From the IMG/VR virus record IMGVR_UViG_3300047157_000197, positions 62,001 to 126,000 of that record: a DNA stretch of 64,000 nucleotides, one strand, 5' to 3'. This document shows positions 3,411 to 58,056 of the stretch, piece by piece. The notes under the pieces are model-generated. The model saw nothing but the letters and a program-made list of their open reading frames with translations, did no database searches and had not been told where the DNA came from. A program made the translations under genes and the position numbers. This DNA is from a virus. Every line of letters starts with the position of its first letter. The stretch's first letter is position 1.

Positions 3411-3427
3411 TTTTTCGTATATTTACA
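3411..3427 (+). promoter_or_regulatory. Promoter-like element, variant TTTTTCGTATATTTACA
   Basis: A variant of the recurrent box, 18 bases before the primase ATG. A near-identical 16-mer (TTTTCGTATATTTACA) occurs at 18843-18858 before the glycan island. The TTTTCG prefix and final ACA set these two apart from the other copies, perhaps marking early or middle genes. Confidence 0.55.
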
Positions 3428-18842: not shown

Positions 18843-18858
18843 TTTTCGTATATTTACA
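18843..18858 (+). promoter_or_regulatory. Promoter-like element TTTTCGTATATTTACA
   Basis: The second copy of the TTTTCG-type variant (the other is at 3411-3427), 18 bases before the first gene of the glycan island. Confidence 0.55.
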
Positions 18859-42908: not shown

Positions 42909-44501
42909 ATGGCTAAACAAAGTTTAAAAGAAATAATAAAACTTGAGTATCAGAAATGTGCTCAAGACCCTATATACTTCATGAAGAAGTACTGTATGAT
43001 ACAACATCCAGTTAGGGGGAAAATTCCTTTTCACTTATATCAGTTTCAAGAAAGAACTTTAGACCAATTCGCAGAACACAGATACAACATCATTCTTAAA
43101 TCTCGACAAACGGGTATCTCAACCTTAACTGCGGGATTTTCACTTTGGAAGATGTTATTCAATCAAGATTTTAATGTATTGGTAATTGCAACTAAACAAG
43201 AAGTTGCCAAGAACCTTGTAACGAAGGTTCGTGTAATGAATCAATATTTACCATCATGGTTAAAACAAAATACAGTAGAGGATAACAAACTATCCTTAAG
43301 ATACTCGAATGGTTCTCAGATAAAAGCAACTTCAGCCGCTGGTGATGCTGGTCGTTCTGAAGCATTATCTTTATTAGTATTTGATGAGGCAGCATTTATT
43401 GATAAGATTGAAGATATTTGGGTATCGGCACAATCAACACTATCGACTGGGGGTAATGCAATTATCCTATCTACTCCAAATGGTGTAGGAAACTTTTTTC
43501 ACAAAACTTGGGTAGGTGCAGAAGAAGAAACAAATACTTTTAACACTATTAGATTACATTGGAGTGTACATCCAGAAAGAGACCAAGATTGGAGAGATGA
43601 ACAAGAAGTTTTATTAGGACCAAAAGGAGCAGCACAAGAATGTGATTGTGATTTTGTATCTTCGGGTGATACTGTGATAGACCCACAACTCCTTATGTTC
43701 TATAAAGAATCATTTATCCAAGAACCAGTTGAAAAGACTGGATTCGATGGAAATCTTTGGAAGTGGGAATATCCAAACTATCAGAAATCTTATATGGTAG
43801 TTGCCGATGTTGCTCGTGGTGATGCTGCCGATTTCTCGGCATGTCATGTTATTGATATAGAAGAATCATCTCAAGTTGCAGAATATAAAGGTAAATTAGA
43901 TACAAAAGATTTTGGAAATTTTCTTGTATCTCTTGCAACCGATTATAACAATGCATTACTAGTAGTTGAGAACGCAAATATTGGTTGGGCAGTAATTCAA
44001 CAAGTAATTGATAGAGGATATGGAAACCTTTTCTATATGAGTAAAGATTTAAAGTATGTAGATGTAGAGAATCAATTAACAAACAAATACAGAGCACAAG
44101 ATAGAGGGTTAACTGCAGGTTTTAGTACAACATCTAAAACAAGACCTCTAATCATATCTAAATTAGAACAATACATTAGAGAAAAATCCGTTACAATTCG
44201 TTCACAAAGAACAATAGATGAATTATTTACATTTATATGGAATGGTAATAGAGCAGAAGCAATGAGGGGTTATAATGATGATTTAACGATGTCCCTTGCA
44301 ATATCGTTGTGGGTTAGAGATACTGCTTTGAGATTAAGACAAGAAGGAATTGATTTAACAAAACAGGCATTAGGTGGAATTGGAGCACATCAATTGGATG
44401 TTGCTGGAATGGGATTTGGTGGTAATGCTTCTATGGATGAAAACCCATGGAAAATGCGGGTTGGGGATAGTAATGAAGATTTAACTTGGTTAATTAAATA
44501 A
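42909..44501 (+). CDS. Terminase large subunit (T4 gp17-like)
   Basis: 530 residues; the ATP-driven DNA-packaging motor and nuclease. ATPase: Walker A-like SRQTGIST (about 65-72) and Walker B LLVFDEAAFI (about 131-140) followed by the coupling motif LSTPNG. Nuclease (RNase-H-like): VADVARGDAADFSA with the first Asp, VVENANIG with the central Glu, and NDDLTMSLAI with the final Asp. The length is near T4 gp17 (610). It starts one base after the previous stop and ends just before a promoter-like box. Confidence 0.95.
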   Translation: MAKQSLKEIIKLEYQKCAQDPIYFMKKYCMIQHPVRGKIPFHLYQFQERTLDQFAEHRYNIILKSRQTGISTLTAGFSLWKMLFNQDFNVLVIATKQEVAKNLVTKVRVMNQYLPSWLKQNTVEDNKLSLRYSNGSQIKATSAAGDAGRSEALSLLVFDEAAFIDKIEDIWVSAQSTLSTGGNAIILSTPNGVGNFFHKTWVGAEEETNTFNTIRLHWSVHPERDQDWRDEQEVLLGPKGAAQECDCDFVSSGDTVIDPQLLMFYKESFIQEPVEKTGFDGNLWKWEYPNYQKSYMVVADVARGDAADFSACHVIDIEESSQVAEYKGKLDTKDFGNFLVSLATDYNNALLVVENANIGWAVIQQVIDRGYGNLFYMSKDLKYVDVENQLTNKYRAQDRGLTAGFSTTSKTRPLIISKLEQYIREKSVTIRSQRTIDELFTFIWNGNRAEAMRGYNDDLTMSLAISLWVRDTALRLRQEGIDLTKQALGGIGAHQLDVAGMGFGGNASMDENPWKMRVGDSNEDLTWLIK

Positions 44502-44963: not shown

Positions 44964-46700
44964 ATGGCAGATACTTCATTTTTTGGTAGATTAACGAAAC
45001 TCTTTCGTACTCAAGCAGTTGTTACTGTTGATAAAGAGGGTAAGAGAAAAGTAATTGATACCGATGAAAGACAACAAACTAACTTATCTTCTTTAAGAGA
45101 TAGGTACACGAAACTACAAAAAGGTTTCTATGAACAAGCAGGTGGTGCTCAATCAATGGCATACCAACAAGTTCGTAGAGAAGTTTTTAGAGATTTTGAT
45201 GCAATGGATAATGACCCAATATTAGCATCAGCTCTTGATATATACGCAGATGAATCAACACTAAAAAATGAATTTGGTGATACTCTTGGAATTGTATCTG
45301 ATAATCAACAAGTACAAGAAATATTAAGAAACTTATTTTATGATGTTCTTAATATTGAATTCAACTTATGGCCATGGGTAAGAAATATGTGTAAGTATGG
45401 AGATTTCTTCTTAGGTTTAGAAATCGCTGAAGGTAAAGGTATTGTTAACGTTACACCTCATTCAGTTTACAACACAGAAAGATTAGAAAGAACAGACCCA
45501 TCGAATCCAAACTCAGTAAAGTTTAAAATTACTGAAGACCCAAATGGAAAAGAACAATACGAAAACTTTGAAGTTGCTCACTTTAGATTATTAGCAGATA
45601 CAAACTGGTTACCATATGGTAAATCTATGATTGAGAATGGACGAAGATTGTGGAAACAATTATCTTTAATGGAAGATGCAATGTTAATCCATAGAATTAT
45701 GAGAGCACCTGAAAAGAGAGTTTTCAAAGTAGATATAGGAAACATACCTCCAACAGAAGTAGATAACTATATGCAAAGAATTATGAACAAGATGAAGAAA
45801 GTTCCTTTTGTTGATAGAAATACTGGTGATTACAACTTAAAGTACAATATGCAAAACCTAACAGAAGATTTTTATCTACCTGTTCGTGGTGGTGATAGTG
45901 GAACCAATATTGAAAATCTTGCTGGTTTAGAATATGCAAGTATTGAGGATATTGATTATCTAAAAAACAAATTATTTGCAGCTCTAAAGATTCCAAAAGC
46001 TTATTTAGGATATGAAGAAAATGTAGGTGGTAAAGCAACTCTTGCTGCAGAAGATGTTAGATTCGCAAGAACAATAGAAAGAATACAAAGAACCGTAGTA
46101 TCTGAATTAACTAAAATTGCAATAGTACATTTATATGCACAAGGAGTTACTGATTCAGAAATGACAAACTTTGAATTACAATTAGTAAATCCATCTTTTA
46201 TTTACGAACAAGAAAAATTAAATCTTTGGAGTGAAAAAATTAGATTAGCTCAAGATATACAAGGTCTTAATATGTTATCTAAAGATTGGGTATATGATAA
46301 TGTATTTAAATTATCAGATGGAGAATCCGATGAACAAAGAGTTCAGATGTTAGATGATTTAAAAGATAGATATAGATTCCGTTCTATTGAAGATGAGGGT
46401 AATGACCCTGCACAAGAAGATGAAGAGCCAGATGATATTGAGGAATCAATTGAAAAACTAAAACAAGAAATAAAAGATAAAGGTGGTAGACCGAAAGAAG
46501 GTGGAACATATGGAAAAGATAAACACCCATATGGAAGAGACCCTTTAGGAGATAAAGAAAGAAAAGATGCTAAAAGAAACACAACTTCTGAAGAAAAAGC
46601 TATACAATATATTAATGGTATTGCATCAAAAAGAAAATATTTACATGAATTAAAAGGTATGTTAGATGAGGAGAATATCCTCAAAGATACTGAAAATTAA
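44964..46700 (+). CDS. Portal vertex protein (T4 gp20-like)
   Basis: 578 residues (T4 gp20 is 524). The dodecameric portal is the entry for DNA and the starting point of prohead assembly. Diagnostic stretches are FDAMDNDPILASALDIYADE, EFNLWPWVRNMCKYGDFFLG, HRIMRAPEKRVFKVDIGNI and LKIPKAYLGYEENVGGKATL, all typical of gp20 of T4-like phages. The C-terminal tail is highly charged (EEPDDIEESIEKLKQEIKDKGG) and longer than usual. It stands in the expected place after the terminase and before prohead-core genes. Confidence 0.93.
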   Translation: MADTSFFGRLTKLFRTQAVVTVDKEGKRKVIDTDERQQTNLSSLRDRYTKLQKGFYEQAGGAQSMAYQQVRREVFRDFDAMDNDPILASALDIYADESTLKNEFGDTLGIVSDNQQVQEILRNLFYDVLNIEFNLWPWVRNMCKYGDFFLGLEIAEGKGIVNVTPHSVYNTERLERTDPSNPNSVKFKITEDPNGKEQYENFEVAHFRLLADTNWLPYGKSMIENGRRLWKQLSLMEDAMLIHRIMRAPEKRVFKVDIGNIPPTEVDNYMQRIMNKMKKVPFVDRNTGDYNLKYNMQNLTEDFYLPVRGGDSGTNIENLAGLEYASIEDIDYLKNKLFAALKIPKAYLGYEENVGGKATLAAEDVRFARTIERIQRTVVSELTKIAIVHLYAQGVTDSEMTNFELQLVNPSFIYEQEKLNLWSEKIRLAQDIQGLNMLSKDWVYDNVFKLSDGESDEQRVQMLDDLKDRYRFRSIEDEGNDPAQEDEEPDDIEESIEKLKQEIKDKGGRPKEGGTYGKDKHPYGRDPLGDKERKDAKRNTTSEEKAIQYINGIASKRKYLHELKGMLDEENILKDTEN

Positions 46701-49443: not shown

Positions 49444-49620
49444 GTGACTAAAAAAGAATTGTATGATATAATCAATGAGGAAATCGTTAACTTCAAAAAA
49501 GGAAAAATTAACGAAGACCTTAATGAGTCTGATAAAGATTTAATAAGAAAAATCATCAGACAAGAGGTATCAGCAATCTTTTTTGATTTATTTAAAAAAC
49601 GTAAAAGTTGGGGAGCATAA
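49444..49620 (+). CDS. 58-residue head-module protein (GTG start)
   Basis: GTG at 49444 starts a 58-codon frame (MTKKELYDIINEEIVNFKKG...) ending in TAA at 49618-49620, whose last base is the first base of the protease ATG. The C-terminus RKIIRQEVSAIFFDLFKKRK is an amphipathic helix with a hydrophobic face, and KINEDLNE carries two possible I/L-x-E sites. Tight packing, one base after the previous stop and overlapping the next start, supports a real gene. It probably belongs to the prohead core. Confidence 0.65.
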   Translation: MTKKELYDIINEEIVNFKKGKINEDLNESDKDLIRKIIRQEVSAIFFDLFKKRKSWGA

Positions 49621-50201
49621 TGGCAAATTTATTAATAGAAACAAACCTATTCGAAGGTAGAGTAAACGAGGACGAGAGTGGAAGAACTATCGTTAAGGGT
49701 ATTTTACAAAGAGCAGGTGCAGAAAATCAAAATGGAAGGATATATCCTAAACCAATTTTGATGAGAGAAGCTAAGAAATACGAAACACTTATTAAAGAAA
49801 GAAGAGCACTTGGTGAATTAGACCATCCAGATTCTTCTGTAATCAATCTAAAGAATGTATCTCATAACGTAAGAGAGATTCATTGGGATAACGATGATTT
49901 AGTAGGAACAGTTGAGATATTACCTACCCCATCTGGTAACATCTTAAAAGAACTACTTAAAGCAGGAATCCTTTTAGGTATATCATCAAGAGGTATGGGT
50001 TCAGTAGAACCTCTATCAGGTGGTAAAGTACAAGTAGGTGAAGATTTTGAATTGATAGGTTGGGATTTTGTTTCTAATCCATCAACACATGGAGCATTTA
50101 TGACTCCGATGAACGAATCTGTTAACAAACAAGGTGAAGTTTGTAACGAGTGGTGTAAATCACAAGATTTAATGAGAGAAATTATAACAGAATTAAACTA
50201 A
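49620..50201 (+). CDS. Prohead core protease (T4 gp21-like)
   Basis: 193 residues from ATG 49620 (TAATG overlap; a TTG 12 bases upstream is less likely). It is the serine protease that matures the T4-type prohead. Family features are ILQRAGAENQNGRIYP near the N-terminus, the catalytic His in GELDHPDSS (about 60-68) and the catalytic Ser in GISSRGMGS (about 119-127), followed by DFELIGWDFVSNPS. Its C-terminal part contains NESVNKQ, nearly the same as the SVNE sites in neighbouring proteins, suggesting self-processing. Length is close to T4 gp21 (212). Confidence 0.92.
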   Translation: MANLLIETNLFEGRVNEDESGRTIVKGILQRAGAENQNGRIYPKPILMREAKKYETLIKERRALGELDHPDSSVINLKNVSHNVREIHWDNDDLVGTVEILPTPSGNILKELLKAGILLGISSRGMGSVEPLSGGKVQVGEDFELIGWDFVSNPSTHGAFMTPMNESVNKQGEVCNEWCKSQDLMREIITELN

Positions 50202-50204
50202 GTT

Positions 50205-50393
50205 ATGGCATTTGATATAAAAAAATATTTAGGTGATAATGATATTAAATTAGGAACAGTAACAAGAAACGTTGCAAGTGTTCCATTTAAAGGTGGTCAC
50301 AACGATATAAGAAAAACTAATTATGATGTTAAGATTACCGAAGATGGTAAACTTGATTTATATACTCTTAAAAAGGAGACAAAGAAATTATGA
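50205..50393 (+). CDS. 62-residue protein, unknown function
   Basis: A small Lys-rich protein (MAFDIKKYLGDNDIKLGTVT...) starting 3 bases after the protease stop and overlapping the next gene by 4 bases (ATGA). SVPFKGGHNDIRKTNYDVKI looks like a beta-hairpin. No family recognised. By position it is probably a minor head or core component. Confidence 0.6.
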   Translation: MAFDIKKYLGDNDIKLGTVTRNVASVPFKGGHNDIRKTNYDVKITEDGKLDLYTLKKETKKL

Positions 50394-52204
50394 TTAAACT
50401 AACTGATTTATTACAAGAACAAGATTCATTTACTGCAATCAACAAAAGTAGTGGTAACGTAACTGCATTTAAATCAAAAGATGCAAGAGACTCTGCAGTT
50501 AAATCAGGTACTCATGATAAAAATAAAGATTCAGAAGATGATGATGATAAAAAAGATACTCCTAAAGTAAACATCTTTAAAAGGGATAATGATTCCGACT
50601 CAAAGAAAAATCTTCAGAAAATGAAAAAAGATAAAAGTGGAACTCAAAAATCTTTATTTCCTGATGAGAAACCAGATTCAAAACCAACTGGTGATTCTAA
50701 TAAAATAAAAGACCCAAAAGGAATGTCAAAGGTTGTTCCTAAAGATATTGGAACAGACCCTGATAAGATGGAAGCTTGGCTATTTGATGAAGATGGTGCA
50801 ATTGGAGATGGTCAAAGTTTCGGAATGAGTGATAAAAACGCAGATGAACTTTACAATTTACATGGTAAATATGATGATGCAAAAAAAGCTGGTGATAAAA
50901 AAGAAATTGAACGAACTAAGAAAGAGTACATTGAATTTGTTTATAACAATTTAGAAAAAAATCAAAACAAACCAAAAGAACCTGAAACAAACGATTATTG
51001 GAACAAGGATAAAGATGCACCTAAGAGAGATGATAACACCGATACACAGATAGATGATGTTCAAAATAATATTGGTGATTTAGATGGCGATGAAATGAGA
51101 GATTATGCAGAATCAGATATATTCCCATATCTTAAAGGGAAAGATTTAGAAATTGCAAAATCATTAGTAGATGATATTGAAGATTCTGGTTCAGATTTTG
51201 TTAGAAGTGCTGATGTAAGGGCAGATTTAAAAGATTTATTTGATAAGAAAATGACTTTAGATTCTCCAAAAATAAAACCTTTTGCTCCAAAACCATCTAA
51301 AATTGTACTAAAGAACCTTGATACATTAGGTGACATGGCGATTGGTGATAAACCAGCATTAAATCCAAAAGATATGGGTGATGCAGAATATGAAAGAACA
51401 ATGTTACGAATGATACATAATTCATTAGAAGATTCAAACTATCATACGGCTAACAGATTTATCTTTGCAGATTTAGAAGGTAATAAAGAAAAAAGAAAGA
51501 AAGCTGATTTCAGAAATGCTCCAGATTTAGGTTCGCCTGATTATAAAGATTGGACAGAAAAAAACACTATCTATACAAAAGATTTTAATGCAGGATTTAA
51601 TAGAAAAAATGAAAGAGATGATTTATTTGATAAAGTTTCAATTGAAGCTGCTCAAAAATCAGGACATGATGGTGGACAAATTCTTGCTGGTTATCTTGTA
51701 AAACTAAGAAAAGATGGTAAAGAAGATTTAGCAAATAGAATTCAAAAATCATTTGAAGATGCTGAAAAATCTATGGATGAGGGTAAACTTAGTATCACAT
51801 CTCTTGTTAAAGAATCTATATTTATAAAAAATTTAATCAACGAAGGAACTCGTTCTCAAGTTGGTGTGATTGGTAGAAATGGTAAGATTGTTTCTGCATA
51901 CGTTCATTTCGATGGTTATCCATCAAATATGAAACCAGGTTTAAAACATCACATGAAGAACGAAAAAGATGTTCTTAAACTAATCAAGATGGGTGGGGCA
52001 AGAGGAATCTTTGATGATAAAGAAATTGAATATTACAAAAAAAGTGGTCAACCATTAAAAGGTGATTCTAAAGATATTAAATCATATATTAACGATGCTG
52101 GAGTTGAGGCTGGAGCAGAATATGTATATTTATACAATATAAAGGATAAGAAATGGTATTTCGCCGATGTATATGGTAAAAAAGAACTAAAAAAATTATT
52201 TTAA
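50390..52204 (+). CDS. Internal head polyprotein with conserved-looking C-terminal domain
   Basis: 604 residues. It begins MIKLTDLLQEQDSF, a capsid-targeting-like segment with an LLQE site. A long low-complexity Asp/Lys region (about 25-220) is followed by helical sequence. LINEGTRSQVGVI marks a probable cut, releasing a ~125-residue C-terminal domain (AYVHFDGYPSNMKPGLKHH, ... DVLKLIKMGGARGIFDDKE). The acidic-basic low-complexity part is typical of packaged internal proteins. It overlaps the upstream gene by 4 bases. Function unknown. Confidence 0.68.
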   Translation: MIKLTDLLQEQDSFTAINKSSGNVTAFKSKDARDSAVKSGTHDKNKDSEDDDDKKDTPKVNIFKRDNDSDSKKNLQKMKKDKSGTQKSLFPDEKPDSKPTGDSNKIKDPKGMSKVVPKDIGTDPDKMEAWLFDEDGAIGDGQSFGMSDKNADELYNLHGKYDDAKKAGDKKEIERTKKEYIEFVYNNLEKNQNKPKEPETNDYWNKDKDAPKRDDNTDTQIDDVQNNIGDLDGDEMRDYAESDIFPYLKGKDLEIAKSLVDDIEDSGSDFVRSADVRADLKDLFDKKMTLDSPKIKPFAPKPSKIVLKNLDTLGDMAIGDKPALNPKDMGDAEYERTMLRMIHNSLEDSNYHTANRFIFADLEGNKEKRKKADFRNAPDLGSPDYKDWTEKNTIYTKDFNAGFNRKNERDDLFDKVSIEAAQKSGHDGGQILAGYLVKLRKDGKEDLANRIQKSFEDAEKSMDEGKLSITSLVKESIFIKNLINEGTRSQVGVIGRNGKIVSAYVHFDGYPSNMKPGLKHHMKNEKDVLKLIKMGGARGIFDDKEIEYYKKSGQPLKGDSKDIKSYINDAGVEAGAEYVYLYNIKDKKWYFADVYGKKELKKLF

Positions 52205-52214
52205 GGAGAGTACA

Positions 52215-52967
52215 ATGATTAAATTAACCCAACTAATGAACGAATCAGAAGAAAAGAGACCTCTTTCTAATGAAGTTAAAAAACACTTCTTAGAAATCGT
52301 TTCTACTTACAACAAGTACCAAGAATCAATGGATAGAAAATCTGATATTACTCAAGTAGCAGAAACACTTGGTGGTATTACAGAAGCAGCTAGAACATTA
52401 GCAATTCACGAAGGAGATGATTGGTTTGATAAACACACCATTAAAAGAAACATGAGTGAATTGGATAAGTTGGGTAAACAATTCGATAAAGTTGCTCTTG
52501 AAGCTAAGGCACTTGACCAAAGAATGGGTGGATTATATGAAGATATGGGACACATACTTTCAAGGTACTACAAGATTGGTGAGATTTCAGAAGACCAGAT
52601 GAAAGAACGTTTAGGAATGAACGAATCTAAAGAAGATTGTGGTTGTGGATGTAATGGAACAACTCCAGGTGGATGTAATGAATCTTTAAACGAAGAACCT
52701 GTTGCAGTATCAATGAGAAACGATGATGGTTCTATCACTACTACAATAAAAGAAGTAAATGAATTAAATGAACAAGAAACTGCATTATATGAGTTTGGCC
52801 AAAAGGTTGAAACTCTAATGGAGAAAAATTGTCCAACTGATTCAAGTAAATGGAGTTCTTACAAATCACAAGCAAAAAAGAAATTTGATGTTTATCCATC
52901 AGCATATGCTAATGGTTGGGCAGCTAAGAAATATAAAGCAGCAGGTGGAGGATGGAAGAAATGCTAA
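52215..52967 (+). CDS. Head-module protein with Cys cluster and C-terminal GWAAKKYK domain
   Basis: 250 residues. The N-terminus MIKLTQLMNESEEKRPL repeats the LMNE-type start of its neighbour. A helical domain follows (about 20-135), then a cysteine cluster CGCGCNGTTPGGC (about 144-156) that could bind zinc, a pair of sites (NESLNEEP, ELNEQE), and a C-terminal ~50-residue domain CPTDSSKWSSYKSQAKKKFD, then VYPSAYANGWAAKKYK, rich in aromatic and basic residues. The last domain is compact and looks nucleic-acid binding. It overlaps the next gene by 16 bases. Confidence 0.68.
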   Translation: MIKLTQLMNESEEKRPLSNEVKKHFLEIVSTYNKYQESMDRKSDITQVAETLGGITEAARTLAIHEGDDWFDKHTIKRNMSELDKLGKQFDKVALEAKALDQRMGGLYEDMGHILSRYYKIGEISEDQMKERLGMNESKEDCGCGCNGTTPGGCNESLNEEPVAVSMRNDDGSITTTIKEVNELNEQETALYEFGQKVETLMEKNCPTDSSKWSSYKSQAKKKFDVYPSAYANGWAAKKYKAAGGGWKKC

Positions 52968-53983: not shown

Positions 53984-54368
53984 AAAAGGAACTAAGGTTA
54001 CTTTAGAAATTCAGCCCAACTATTATATTATTTATGGACCTAATAGAAAACAAATCAGTTTAGATAAACAAGATTTTGATTCAGAGACATTACAACAGTA
54101 TGTTATATATGAATCAGCAAACCAAGAAGTACCACAAGGATATAATCCAGTGGTAGAAGATAAAAAACAAATCAAAGATTTAGTAAAAAAAGTTAAACAC
54201 GAAAAACTATTTTACGATGTACTTGATACCATGGAAAAAAAGTATGGTAAAAACAAATACAGAATTTGGTTAGAAAAATCCCTAAAAGATTTTGGAGTAA
54301 ATCCAAAACATTACGATTACAGAACCAATGCTGGTGCAGAAGAAAAATTATTCCAATTAGGTAAGTAA
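53961..54368 (+). CDS. Head-module protein, unknown function (GTG start)
   Basis: 135 residues from GTG 53961, overlapping the previous gene by 23 bases in the +1 frame. The first third is a small beta unit (KFKKGTKVTLEIQPNYYIIY, GPNRKQISLD). The rest is helical and basic (KKVKHEKLFYDVLDTMEKKY, WLEKSLKDFG). There is no clear ribosome site, which suits translational coupling or a frameshift product of the upstream gene. It abuts the next gene (overlap of one base). Confidence 0.55.
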   Translation: MTLVVKFKKGTKVTLEIQPNYYIIYGPNRKQISLDKQDFDSETLQQYVIYESANQEVPQGYNPVVEDKKQIKDLVKKVKHEKLFYDVLDTMEKKYGKNKYRIWLEKSLKDFGVNPKHYDYRTNAGAEEKLFQLGK

Positions 54369-54712
54369 TGAGATTACAAAATATCATAGACGAGATATTT
54401 GAAGAAACCACAAATGAAGATTTGAGAAACTGGTTTAAATCCAAGTGGGTTAACATCGGTAAAAAAGATAAAAGTGGTAAACACCCCCCATGTGGTACAA
54501 GTGGTAAGAAAAAAGGATATGCAAAATGTGTTCCTGCCAAGAAAGCCGCATCTATGAGTAAGAAAGAAAAAGAATCTGCAACTCGTAGAAAAAGAGCAGC
54601 ACAAAACAAATCCAATAGAGGTGGTAAATCATCTGCAGGACAGGGTAAAAAACCTATCAATGTTTCTACACATACCAAAGGAAGAAAATCAGGAACTGGT
54701 AAAGGTTCTTAA
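54368..54712 (+). CDS. Very basic KHPPCG-motif phage protein
   Basis: 114 residues, extremely rich in Lys, Arg, Ser and Gly. NWFKSKWVNIGKKDKSGKHP followed by PCGTSGKKKGYAKCVPAKKA is a pattern I associate with a small conserved phage/viral domain with paired cysteines (DUF6321-type; the number is from memory). SMSKKEKESATRRKRAAQN follows. The N-terminus MRLQNIIDEIFEETTNE again resembles a targeting segment with acidic sites. It could bind DNA inside the capsid. It is the last gene before the bS21 promoter box. Confidence 0.68.
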   Translation: MRLQNIIDEIFEETTNEDLRNWFKSKWVNIGKKDKSGKHPPCGTSGKKKGYAKCVPAKKAASMSKKEKESATRRKRAAQNKSNRGGKSSAGQGKKPINVSTHTKGRKSGTGKGS

Positions 54713-54724
54713 ATTAAAATTATA

Positions 54725-54736
54725 TATACTTATATA
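54725..54736 (+). promoter_or_regulatory. Promoter-like element TATACTTATATA
   Basis: A one-mismatch copy of the recurrent box, 27 bases before the bS21 start. Confidence 0.5.
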
Positions 54737-54763
54737 AAATAACGTTACACTAAAATTAGGAGA

Positions 54764-55072
54764 ATGAGTAAAAAGAAATCAATTGTTTCTGTTAAGGTAA
54801 TCAAAGGAGATATCAACAGAGCATTAAAAAAATTAAAAAGAAGAACCATTGACTCTGGTCATCTTCTAGAACTAAGAGAAAGAAAATATTATATAAAACC
54901 CACAACAGTTCGTAGAAGAGAAAAACAATTAGCAGTTAGAGAACAAGAAAAGGAAACTATACTTGGTAAAATAGCAGATGGTGATACTAAATTAAGATTT
55001 TATACTAAAAAACCTAAAAGAAAAGGTAACAAAAACGATAAAAATAAGAATAATGAAAAAAAAGATAAGTAA
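54764..55072 (+). CDS. rpsU: Phage-encoded small ribosomal subunit protein bS21
   Basis: 102 residues. VIKGDINRALKKLKRRTIDS followed by GHLLELRERKYYIKPTTVRR matches bacterial bS21: a conserved basic helix with ALKKLKR, then the R-E-R-K/R-x-Y-x-K-P-T-T-x-R signature. A Lys/Asn-rich tail of about 35 residues is longer than in cellular copies (about 65-70 total). bS21 sits near the anti-Shine-Dalgarno of 16S rRNA, and phage copies are known from marine viruses. The gene has its own AGGAG (54758-54762), only one base from ATG. It could exchange into host ribosomes and favour phage messages (inference). Confidence 0.88.
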   Translation: MSKKKSIVSVKVIKGDINRALKKLKRRTIDSGHLLELRERKYYIKPTTVRRREKQLAVREQEKETILGKIADGDTKLRFYTKKPKRKGNKNDKNKNNEKKDK

Positions 55073-55255: not shown

Positions 55256-56413
55256 ATGGCAAACTCAAATTTGTTAAAAGAAGCTATCGCTGATGCAAAA
55301 GCTGTTAGAGAAACTGCAATTGCAAATGCTAAAATAGCTTTGGAAGAAGCTTTTACACCTCGTTTACAATCTATTCTATCTCAGAAACTTCAACAAGAAA
55401 TTGAAGAAGGTGAAGAGGAAGAAGAAAAGGTTGAAGAAAACGAAGTAGTAGAAGAAACTGAAACAGTAGTAGAAGCTGAAGTAACTGAAGACGAAGATAA
55501 AGAAGAAGTTGAAGAATCAACTGAAACTGAAACTGTATCTGAAGAAGAAGTAACTGAAGGTGAAGACGCTGAAGAAGAAAAAGAAGTAAAAGAAGAAACT
55601 GAAGTTGTTGCTGAAGAAGAATCAGAAGAAGAATCGAAAGATGAAGTATCTGAGGAAGCTGAAGAAGAAGAACAAGAAGTATCTGAAGAAGAAGATGAAG
55701 ATGAACTTGACTTAGAATCAATCATTAAAGAATTAGAAGCTGAATTAGACGAAGACTCTCACGAGGAAGAAGCTGATGAAGTTGAAGAAGAACTTGATGG
55801 TGAGGAAGAAGAACAAGTATCTGACATCGCATCTGATGAAATCGAATCTCACGAAGATGAACATCACTCTGAAGAAGAAGTATCTGAAGAAGGTGAAGAA
55901 CACTCCGAAGAAGAAGATGACATAGATGAAGAAATCGACTTAGACGAAATCCTAAAAGAAATGGGATACGGAGAAGAAGATGAATCTGATGAAGAAGAAG
56001 TTTCTGAAGAAGTTGTAGAAGAAACTAACGAACTTGAAGAAGTAAAATCAGAGCTTACAGAAGCAATGAGTACAATCAAGGAACTTAAATCTACAATCAA
56101 CGAAGTAAATTTATTGAACGCTAAATTACTTTACACTAACAAACTATTCCGTTCTTATGATTTAAACAATGACCAGAAAATGAAAGTTGTTGAAACATTA
56201 GATAGAACTAAGAATGTTAGAGAAGTAAAATTAGTATTTAGTACATTAGCAGAATCACTAAAAATTGGTGGAACTGCAAAAAAACAAAAACAAGCTAAAA
56301 TCAACGAATCATTCGCATCTAAACCAGTTGCAAGTACTGCTCCTACAAAGGAAGTAATTACTGAATCAACTAACACGATGGCAGAAAGATTTAAGAAATT
56401 AGCAAATATTTAA
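55256..56413 (+). CDS. Prohead core scaffolding protein (T4 gp22-like)
   Basis: 385 residues. The N-terminal ~50 residues (MANSNLLKEAIADAKAVRET, then ANAKIALEEAFTPRLQSILS) are typical of gp22-type scaffolds in marine T4-like phages. Residues ~50-265 are an extreme Glu/Asp-rich low-complexity region of EEE, VEE and SEEEVSEE repeats. The last 120 residues are helical (STINEVNLLNAKLLYTNKLF, KMKVVETLDRTKNVREVKLV). T4 gp22 (269 residues) is also acidic and is degraded by gp21. LTEAM and INESF are possible cut sites. The position right before the capsid gene agrees. Confidence 0.88.
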   Translation: MANSNLLKEAIADAKAVRETAIANAKIALEEAFTPRLQSILSQKLQQEIEEGEEEEEKVEENEVVEETETVVEAEVTEDEDKEEVEESTETETVSEEEVTEGEDAEEEKEVKEETEVVAEEESEEESKDEVSEEAEEEEQEVSEEEDEDELDLESIIKELEAELDEDSHEEEADEVEEELDGEEEEQVSDIASDEIESHEDEHHSEEEVSEEGEEHSEEEDDIDEEIDLDEILKEMGYGEEDESDEEEVSEEVVEETNELEEVKSELTEAMSTIKELKSTINEVNLLNAKLLYTNKLFRSYDLNNDQKMKVVETLDRTKNVREVKLVFSTLAESLKIGGTAKKQKQAKINESFASKPVASTAPTKEVITESTNTMAERFKKLANI

Positions 56414-56448: not shown

Positions 56449-58056
56449 ATGGCAAATTTTGATTTATCTAAATTAATGGAAGGAAAGAACCCACAACAAG
56501 TGATGCTAGCTGAAACTAGAGAACTTAAAGGTAAATGGGAACAAACTGGACTTCTTGAAGGTTTAGGAGAGAGAGAACAATCACAGGTATCTGTATTGTT
56601 AGAAAACCAAGCAAAACAATTGCTTGATGAAGCTACTGCTACCGGTACAGGTGGTGGAAATGAAGAGTGGAGTGGAGTAGCTCTACCATTAGTAAGACGT
56701 ATCTTCGGTGAAATTGCATCGAAAGAATTCGTTAGTGTACAACCAATGAACTTACCATCTGGACTAATCTTTTATCTAGATTTCAAATACGGTTCAGCTC
56801 AACCAGGAAACCCATCATTCAGCGGAAATTCACTTTTCGGTGGTACAGGTGCAGACCTTGGTTCAACTGATTCTGCTGTAAATGGTCTTTATGGTGAAGG
56901 TAGATTTGCATATACTGCAAATGACGTATCTGATTCAGTAGGTAATAGTGATTTAACTATCGCTTCTGCTTCTTGGGCAGATGTAAATTATGATGCATCA
57001 TTATCAGCTTCAGTTGCTGATGGTTCATTAGCTAGTATTAAATTTAACGCATCTGAATTAGTAAGACCTGATTTAGACGGTGTAAGAAGTTTTTACATCT
57101 CATCTTCAGATTTCGCATCTGCAGATTCTTATTACCCAGCACACTCTAGTGTTTCTGGTGTTGTAGGTTCAGAAGTAATTACTACATTCGCAAAAATCTC
57201 ATCTTTAGGTGGTGATTTAGCAGTTAAACATTCACAACAACCAATCGCTGCAAACAGAGGAGACTTCGAAGATGCTTCTCCATCTGAACCTGCAACTGAT
57301 ATAGGTATTCCAGAAGTTGATTTAGAACTTAAGTCTGAAGCAATTGTTGCTAAGACAAGAAAACTAAAGGCTGTATGGACACCTGAATTGGCTCAAGATT
57401 TAAATGCATACCACAGTATTGATGCTGAGGCTGAATTAACTTCAATGTTATCTGAGTACATCTCATTAGAGATTGACCTAGAAATCCTTGATATGTTAAA
57501 GTCTAACGCGTTAACAACTGAATACTGGTCTGTATCTTTAGGTGAAGAGTATGATGCAAACACAAGTGGTTGGGTTGCTGGAAGTAATTCTGCAGCTTAT
57601 ACTAAAAACTCTTGGTTCCAAACTTTAGGAGCTAAGTTGAATAAAGTATCTAACAAGATACACCAATTAACTTTAAGAGGTGGAGCTAACTTCGTTGTTG
57701 CTTCTCCTGACGTATGTACAATTTTAGAATCTATTCCAGGATTTGCAGTTTCAGCTGATAAAGATGCTTCATCTTTCGCTGCAGGTGTAACTACTGTTGG
57801 TTCTTTATCAAACAGATATACAGTTTACAAGAACCCTTATATGACTTCTAACGAAATCTTATTAGGATTCAAAGGAAGTAATTTCCTTGAGACTGGAGCT
57901 GTTTATGCACCATATGTACCGTTAATTATGACTCCACTTGTATATGACCCAACTAACTTTACACCAAGAAGAGGTGTAATGACTAGATACGCTAAGAAAA
58001 TGGTAAGACCAGAATTCTATGGTAAAATCTATGTTAAAGATTTAAACAACTTATAG
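56449..58056 (+). CDS. Major capsid protein (T4 gp23-like)
   Basis: 535 residues (T4 gp23 is 521). SGVALPLVRRIFGEIASKEF followed by VSVQPMNLPSGLIFYLDFKY is the signature of gp23, and EAELTSMLSEYISLEIDLEI and MVRPEFYGKIYVKDL are further conserved parts. LLDEATATG at 58-66 fits a prohead-protease site; cutting after Glu61 would match T4, where gp23 is cut after residue 65. The same LDEATATG is found near the N-terminus of the 47617 product. A rho-independent terminator follows. AAAAAGG upstream is the ribosome site. Confidence 0.96.
   Translation: MANFDLSKLMEGKNPQQVMLAETRELKGKWEQTGLLEGLGEREQSQVSVLLENQAKQLLDEATATGTGGGNEEWSGVALPLVRRIFGEIASKEFVSVQPMNLPSGLIFYLDFKYGSAQPGNPSFSGNSLFGGTGADLGSTDSAVNGLYGEGRFAYTANDVSDSVGNSDLTIASASWADVNYDASLSASVADGSLASIKFNASELVRPDLDGVRSFYISSSDFASADSYYPAHSSVSGVVGSEVITTFAKISSLGGDLAVKHSQQPIAANRGDFEDASPSEPATDIGIPEVDLELKSEAIVAKTRKLKAVWTPELAQDLNAYHSIDAEAELTSMLSEYISLEIDLEILDMLKSNALTTEYWSVSLGEEYDANTSGWVAGSNSAAYTKNSWFQTLGAKLNKVSNKIHQLTLRGGANFVVASPDVCTILESIPGFAVSADKDASSFAAGVTTVGSLSNRYTVYKNPYMTSNEILLGFKGSNFLETGAVYAPYVPLIMTPLVYDPTNFTPRRGVMTRYAKKMVRPEFYGKIYVKDLNNL

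Follow-up and report, generated by a model that had tools for sequence, protein, structure and literature searches.

A phage bS21 with arginine at the anti-Shine-Dalgarno contact position and late-biased Shine-Dalgarno sequences in a T4-like myovirus

Why a phage should carry a gene for ribosomal protein bS21 among its head genes, and what the protein might do to host ribosomes, are questions raised by the gene at positions 54764..55072 of a 64,000-nucleotide stretch of viral DNA (the window), i.e., bases 62,001-126,000 of the 275,970-base (~276 kb) IMG/VR record IMGVR_UViG_3300047157_000197. All window features located below lie on the + strand. The gene, which starts with ATG and encodes 102 amino acids (aa), was identified as rpsU-like by Pfam, PHROG and PDB sequence matches. 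Thus, residues 9-61 matched Ribosomal_S21 (PF01165; E 6.1e-12, 45.5 bits against a curated cut-off of 27), the product matched PHROG 21469 (ribosomal protein S21; E 5e-9), and the solved structures that matched by sequence were bS21 chains. The motifs quoted in an earlier note, made from the sequence alone, were present, including the extended Lys/Asn tail; the segment following the bS21 domain was long, basic and phage-specific. An AlphaFold2 model contained three helices (predicted local distance difference test 77.6, predicted template modelling score 0.41), and Foldseek returned 12 weak matches with this model, all to entries for ribosomes of mitochondria or chloroplasts (best E 0.046). 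The product is a member of the bS21 family. Phage bS21 as such, and the idea that it retunes host ribosomes, are already in print (PMC6375957, PMC7162821, PMC9723584; here and below, statements from cited papers refer to parts of their text).

In Bacteroidia, the anti-Shine-Dalgarno sequence (ASD) of 16S ribosomal RNA is hidden in part by Tyr54 of bS21, which stacks on A1534 (PMC9976891). Residues 16-59 of the phage protein were aligned by phmmer with chain residues 11-54 of structure 7jil, and the Tyr of Tamlana bS21 fell in the Arg59 column of a profile alignment. Both alignments place Arg59 (codon 54938..54940) opposite the Tyr54 by which Flavobacterium johnsoniae bS21 contacts the 16S 3' tail. 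Arg was found at this position (position 54 hereafter) in 10/10 sequences from the window (locus L019) and its close relatives L001-L009, and the equivalent residue of Escherichia coli bS21 is likewise basic. An aromatic residue was present in all 30 Flavobacteriales sequences read (26 Tyr, 3 His and 1 Phe) from 59 matches in 60 genomes, and in 61/61 phage bS21 proteins of Chen et al. (PMC9723584). As judged from these alignments, the phage protein lacks the aromatic residue that defines the ASD-sequestering, Bacteroidia-type bS21.

The earlier note had also observed that many phage genes lack a Shine-Dalgarno sequence (SD) while others have a strong one. This was correct and, moreover, the distribution was ordered, the genes with SDs being mostly late. 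Open reading frames (ORFs) of at least 60 aa were scored for AGGA, GGAG or GAGG starting at -17 to -7. SDs preceded 25/54 genes of the structural region (record positions 104-172 kb) versus 38/256 elsewhere (Fisher p 1.4e-6). The replication region had 5/53 (2/53 at a mock position; p 2.7e-5 versus structural), and the replication genes named by PHROG, i.e., those for UvsX, both ribonucleotide reductase subunits, DNA polymerase and a helicase, lacked SDs. Frequencies were near the mock level at 0-40, 80-100, 180-220 and 240-276 kb, 11/32 at 40-80 kb, the site of baseplate wedge and tail fibre genes, and 12/30 at 220-240 kb, among genes without assigned function. Miscalled start codons were rejected as the cause of the early/late difference, which persisted with minimum ORF lengths of 100, 170 and 250 aa (for 170 aa, 18/34 structural versus 22/126 elsewhere). 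The same procedure applied to T4 gave a uniform distribution (38/78 in an early region and 28/51 in a late one). The median pairing energy of late SDs was T4-like at -4.5, compared with -6.6 in subclade loci and -5.6 in T4.

The SD contrast also followed two classes of promoter. The core TTTCGTATATTT of a putative Bacteroidota-type early promoter, which occurred in the window at 3413..3424 and again at 18844, was present in the whole record in 20 sense and 0 antisense copies, part of which, with TTTG upstream and G after, fit the Bacteroidota -33/-7 promoter TTTG/TANNTTTG (PMC6847099). A second motif, TATATTTATA, or a variant of it, preceded 27 genes of the record, and the promoter-like box that the earlier note had seen before bS21 proved to be a one-base variant of this late-gene motif (TATACTTATA, 54725..54734) that is kept in relatives. 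SDs followed 15/27 late-type but only 1/16 early-type promoters (p 0.0012). SDs were rejected as merely part of the late promoter, since 14 of the 25 late genes with SDs lacked the late-promoter motif and several of these genes abutted the preceding one. A late motif, ATATTTAT(A), was common to the divergent records G052, G080, G066, G050 and G093 and to Flavobacterium phage immuto, pointing to a late promoter system that these phages may have in common.

Comparisons among related phages revealed a similar contrast. Thus, orthologues of the window's structural-region genes carried SDs in 62/95 cases in the subclade of the window (L001-L009, L041-L043, L045 and L049) versus 0/63 in 22 loci whose bS21 has an aromatic residue at position 54, an effective number below 22 because several loci are near-identical copies of one phage. 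The 22 include L197, a viral contig with a His54 bS21 that hardly differs from the Flavobacteriales protein and may either have been captured recently or be host DNA. SDs were also scarce in immuto, in whose record bS21 was not found (1/18 late orthologues; 6/209 genes), in the cultured Bacteroidota phages FCL-2 (2/51) and phiST (0/50), in the stretches read of jumbo record G093, which has a Tyr54 bS21 and Bacteroidota-type promoters (6/228), in the aromatic-54 locus L048 (4/26) and in Tamlana genes (2/78). They were frequent in Microcystis phage Mel-JY01 (64/228) and record G066 (63/140), both with a basic residue at position 54 and Bacteroidota-type promoters. In a test that omitted loci with fewer than 8 ORFs and treated as unknown those without bS21 that were truncated within 3.5 kb upstream of the capsid gene, the median SD frequency was 0.48 in 40 loci with bS21 versus 0.11 in 16 loci in which it was not found (p 1.8e-5).

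The host of the phage looks like a member of the Bacteroidota, judging by its promoters and by kinship of its capsid protein with that of a Flavobacterium phage; the phage tRNA genes gave no hint of a host. The nearest relatives of the capsid protein were in an uncultured 484-kb phage (57%), Mel-JY01 (53%), immuto (51%) and Rhodothermus phage RM378 (39%). Mel-JY01 (L038, L185-L194; PP395634), for which the recorded host is Microcystis elabens, contained 21 sense intergenic TTG-N17-21-TANNTTTG sites (0.8 expected), and given these Bacteroidota-like promoters its host label may be wrong.

The reading that we favor, at odds slightly short of even (a probability of roughly 0.48), is that the phage protein takes the place of the host's bS21, so that the ASD becomes free and late messenger RNAs (mRNAs) can use SD pairing. 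In Bacteroidia, the 16S 3' tail is held by bS21 (through Tyr54), bS18 and bS6, and ribosomes therefore ignore SDs. On the favored reading, early phage genes would be expressed in the mode of the host, from Bacteroidota-type promoters and without SDs, and late genes in a mode of the phage's own, from phage promoters and with ordinary SDs. With its promoter of the late type and without an SD that could be used, bS21 could be made by unmodified ribosomes, and this late copy would compete with the host protein for the 30S subunit. With Arg in place of Tyr54, ribosomes that contain the phage protein should leave the ASD free and would then favor late, SD-bearing mRNAs. Incorporation, ASD release and preference for late mRNAs are steps that we infer; phage bS21 is able to enter ribosomes (PMC6375957), and with bS21 Y54A in F. 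johnsoniae ribosomes, protein output from an mRNA with a strong SD rose approximately 3-fold (PMC9976891).

The earlier suggestion that phage bS21 may switch host ribosomes to phage messages was thus backed in part, and in a sharper form, by loss of the aromatic residue and by the late SDs, although some relatives did not fit. Several observations weigh against the favored reading. Late orthologues had SDs in 25/109 cases in 13 bS21-negative loci and in only 8/33 and 4/15 cases in the sister records G005 and G047, which have Arg. SDs in Mel-JY01 and G066 were spread genome-wide and did not exclusively favor late genes, and G050 and G052 also had a late bias, although their other genes use SDs too. 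Many SDs were noted in the aromatic-54 loci L093 (11/16), L102 (14/24), L118 (9/23) and L110 (4/12); the records of L118 (G080) and L102 (G071) showed no promoter of the Bacteroidota type. Conversely, few were noted in LR756508 (4/54), L116 (1/35), L076 (1/19) and L052 (3/20), which have a non-aromatic residue at position 54 and thus break a rule by which such residues would predict SD use. Genes in 40 kb of the 48-kb record G028 had SDs in 23/50 cases, yet bS21 was not found in that record. The association of bS21 with SDs, when corrected for the tree of the major capsid protein (MCP), was not significant, with 5 independent pairs only.

Other points of this kind concern the mechanism and the host. 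The Y54A ribosomes showed no gain for weak-SD mRNA in vitro and autoregulation in F. johnsoniae needed pairing below -13 kcal/mol (PMC9976891), a value that no late SD reached. Stimulation in that study required unusually strong SDs whereas those found here are ordinary, so that the phage protein would have to release the tail more fully than Y54A does if the proposed mechanism holds. The bS21 of Pelagibacter phage HTVC008M rendered E. coli ribosomes nearly inactive (PMC6375957). Furthermore, the indications of a Bacteroidota host consist of promoters and capsid kinship, and 11 of the 20 TTTCGTATATTT boxes end in TATATTTAC instead of TTTG.

Among alternatives, the one that survives best, although unlikely, is a general hijack in which phage bS21 supplants the host protein late in infection and uses its basic tail or the N-terminal helix to favor phage mRNAs, the ASD is not freed, and the SDs have some other origin. 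The late-type box at bS21 and the long basic tail of the protein agree with such a role, and a model of this kind was published for Bacteroidetes phages whose bS21 kept an aromatic residue at position 54 (PMC9723584). It leaves unexplained, however, both the concentration of SDs in late genes of this phage and their absence from aromatic-54 relatives.

Somewhat less likely still is an effect of the host, i.e., that an SD-tolerant or SD-using host accounts for the SDs and that bS21 is a spare ribosomal protein that boosts initiation. Records G052 and G050, which carry bS21, use SDs contig-wide, and Bacteroidota-type promoters were not seen in them; their hosts are probably SD-using bacteria. 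A rule by which phage bS21 would predict SD use was rejected for this reason, as host and bS21 are confounded. An effect of the host is, however, at odds with the near-background SD frequency of the early genes of the phage, which have Bacteroidota-type promoters, and with the uniform SD use of T4 on an SD-using host. Given this confounding and the non-significant tree test, the case for the favored reading rests on the SD contrast within the genome.

It is improbable that the main role of bS21 lies outside the ribosome or in the virion, e.g., in RNA binding or in packaging with capsid-targeted proteins. Such a role would account for the position of the gene between head genes in MCP-related loci, and delivery in the virion has been suggested (PMC9723584), but the core bS21 domain is conserved and in G005 the gene is located away from the capsid gene.

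The AGGAG that the earlier note considered odd, at 54758..54762 and one base from the bS21 ATG, is indeed unusual, since the usual AGGAG of this phage starts at -15 to -11. The one-base spacing was found in 10 of the 11 closest sequences (the window and L001-L009 but not L010), among which neighboring leader bases varied; AGGAG was absent from the bS21 start in the sisters G005, L044 and L046. No downstream start or upstream frame that would give normal spacing was seen on reading the sequence, and the N-terminus of the protein was conserved among close relatives. While an AGGAG at this distance is paired, the ATG cannot reach the P site. By this geometry, the motif would be unable to serve as an ordinarily spaced SD, and SD-less translation of bS21 by unmodified ribosomes is therefore expected. 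Between leader and 16S tail, the calculated pairing energy was -7.3 kcal/mol compared with -17.6 for the Tamlana rpsU leader; with this value and 1-nt spacing, the phage leader falls outside the extended-SD type of rpsU autoregulation (below -13 kcal/mol). It is a speculation that the motif brakes bS21 synthesis as ASD-free ribosomes accumulate. The fuller scheme, in which exchange of one protein in mid-infection would turn SD-blind into SD-reading ribosomes, with two modes of initiation and with AGGAG as a self-limit (i.e., the inverse of host rpsU autoregulation), is tentative and clearly less probable than the favored reading. That AGGAG is instead a relic, or the operator of some other regulator, and no translation signal is very improbable, for although its spacing is useless for normal SD pairing and sister genes lack it, it is kept in close relatives while adjacent bases change.

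The location of bS21 directly before scaffold and capsid, as stated in the earlier note, was borne out. An ORF for an acidic scaffold-like protein of 385 aa (55256..56413), which was without match in Pfam and PHROG searches, occupies the same position before the MCP as in Mel-JY01 and immuto, and is followed by the gene for MCP gp23 (56449..58056; Pfam Gp23, E 6.9e-76). Upstream are genes for the prohead protease (49608..50201; Peptidase_S77, E 8e-26), the SD of which precedes an ATG at 49620 (record 111620), and, assigned by position and tblastn homologues rather than by family search, the terminase large subunit (42909..44501; homologues across Tyr54-type loci) and, after it, the portal protein (44964..46700). 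The capsid, protease, terminase and portal genes all have SDs. With gp23, an S77 protease, a head-tail adaptor and other T4-type head genes, the phage is a T4-like myovirus.

Directly 5' of bS21 is a gene for a small basic protein (54368..54712) with weak similarity to DUF5872 (22 bits, under the cut-off of 27.5) and a match to PHROG 23735 (E 2.7e-16). The gene accompanies bS21 elsewhere: a similar one occurs just before the relocated bS21 of G005, and tblastn matches were noted in 8/22 aromatic-54 loci. Its product is one of many with similar N-termini (MIKLTDLLxE or MIKLTQLMNE), others being encoded at 50390-52204 and 52215-52967 of the window and at 220-245 kb of the record; these may be capsid-targeting peptides that are cleaved by the prohead protease. 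The phage also encodes a GroEL chaperonin (L032:14616-16232, record 254616-256232; PHROG 5725, E 4e-172).

Of 80 capsid-related viral loci, 38 had a bS21 gene close to that for the capsid protein, a lower bound because many loci end shortly upstream of the capsid gene; in one further record, G005, bS21 was ~100 kb away from it. A tblastn search of a phage collection for bS21 gave no match at 1e-3, which reflects an insensitive search, since Mel-JY01 in that collection has an annotated RpsU. A scan of genome contigs found 3 loci only and gave little information on the origin of the gene. The Flavobacteriaceae genome G092 (Tamlana fucoidanivorans) has two bS21 genes.

Likenesses to described systems were partial. 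In the Bacteroidetes myoviruses of Chen et al. 2022 (PMC9723584), bS21 is also beside terminase, portal, protease and capsid genes, the hosts are Bacteroidetes and a late role for bS21 was proposed. In those phages, however, the residue at position 54 is aromatic and the gene is on the opposite strand (as in most of L198-L217), whereas here it is Arg, on the strand of the capsid operon and accompanied by SD-bearing late genes. HTVC008M (Mizuno et al. 2019, PMC6375957), likewise a myovirus, encodes a bS21 that enters E. coli ribosomes but has an alphaproteobacterial host, and a late-SD pattern is not reported in the part of the paper cited. In F. johnsoniae (McNutt et al. 2023, PMC9976891), bS21 is the gatekeeper of the ASD and Y54A lifts strong-SD reporters, but rpsU is a host gene with an aromatic residue at position 54 and an extended SD, whereas the phage protein has Arg and the SD of its gene is only one base away from the ATG. 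Mel-JY01 shares with the window a bS21 before scaffold and capsid, a basic residue at position 54 and SDs in its genes but differs in having SDs outside the late region too. In the literature covered, which did not include most subscription journals, no paper was found that links residue 54 of phage bS21 to SD use in late genes, nor was Arg at the equivalent position, the concentration of SDs in late genes or the contrast between aromatic-54 loci and the subclade found published.

Why phages carry bS21 and why Bacteroidia hide a conserved ASD are both open questions. If the favored reading is true, a phage with SDs mainly in late genes and without the residue that hides the ASD would tie these questions together, and one point mutation (Arg59 to Tyr), with F. 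johnsoniae reporters that already exist, would probe both. The phage would then be a case of a virus that re-specializes ribosomes in time, and its bS21 a possible tool with which to switch on SD-dependent translation in Bacteroidota.
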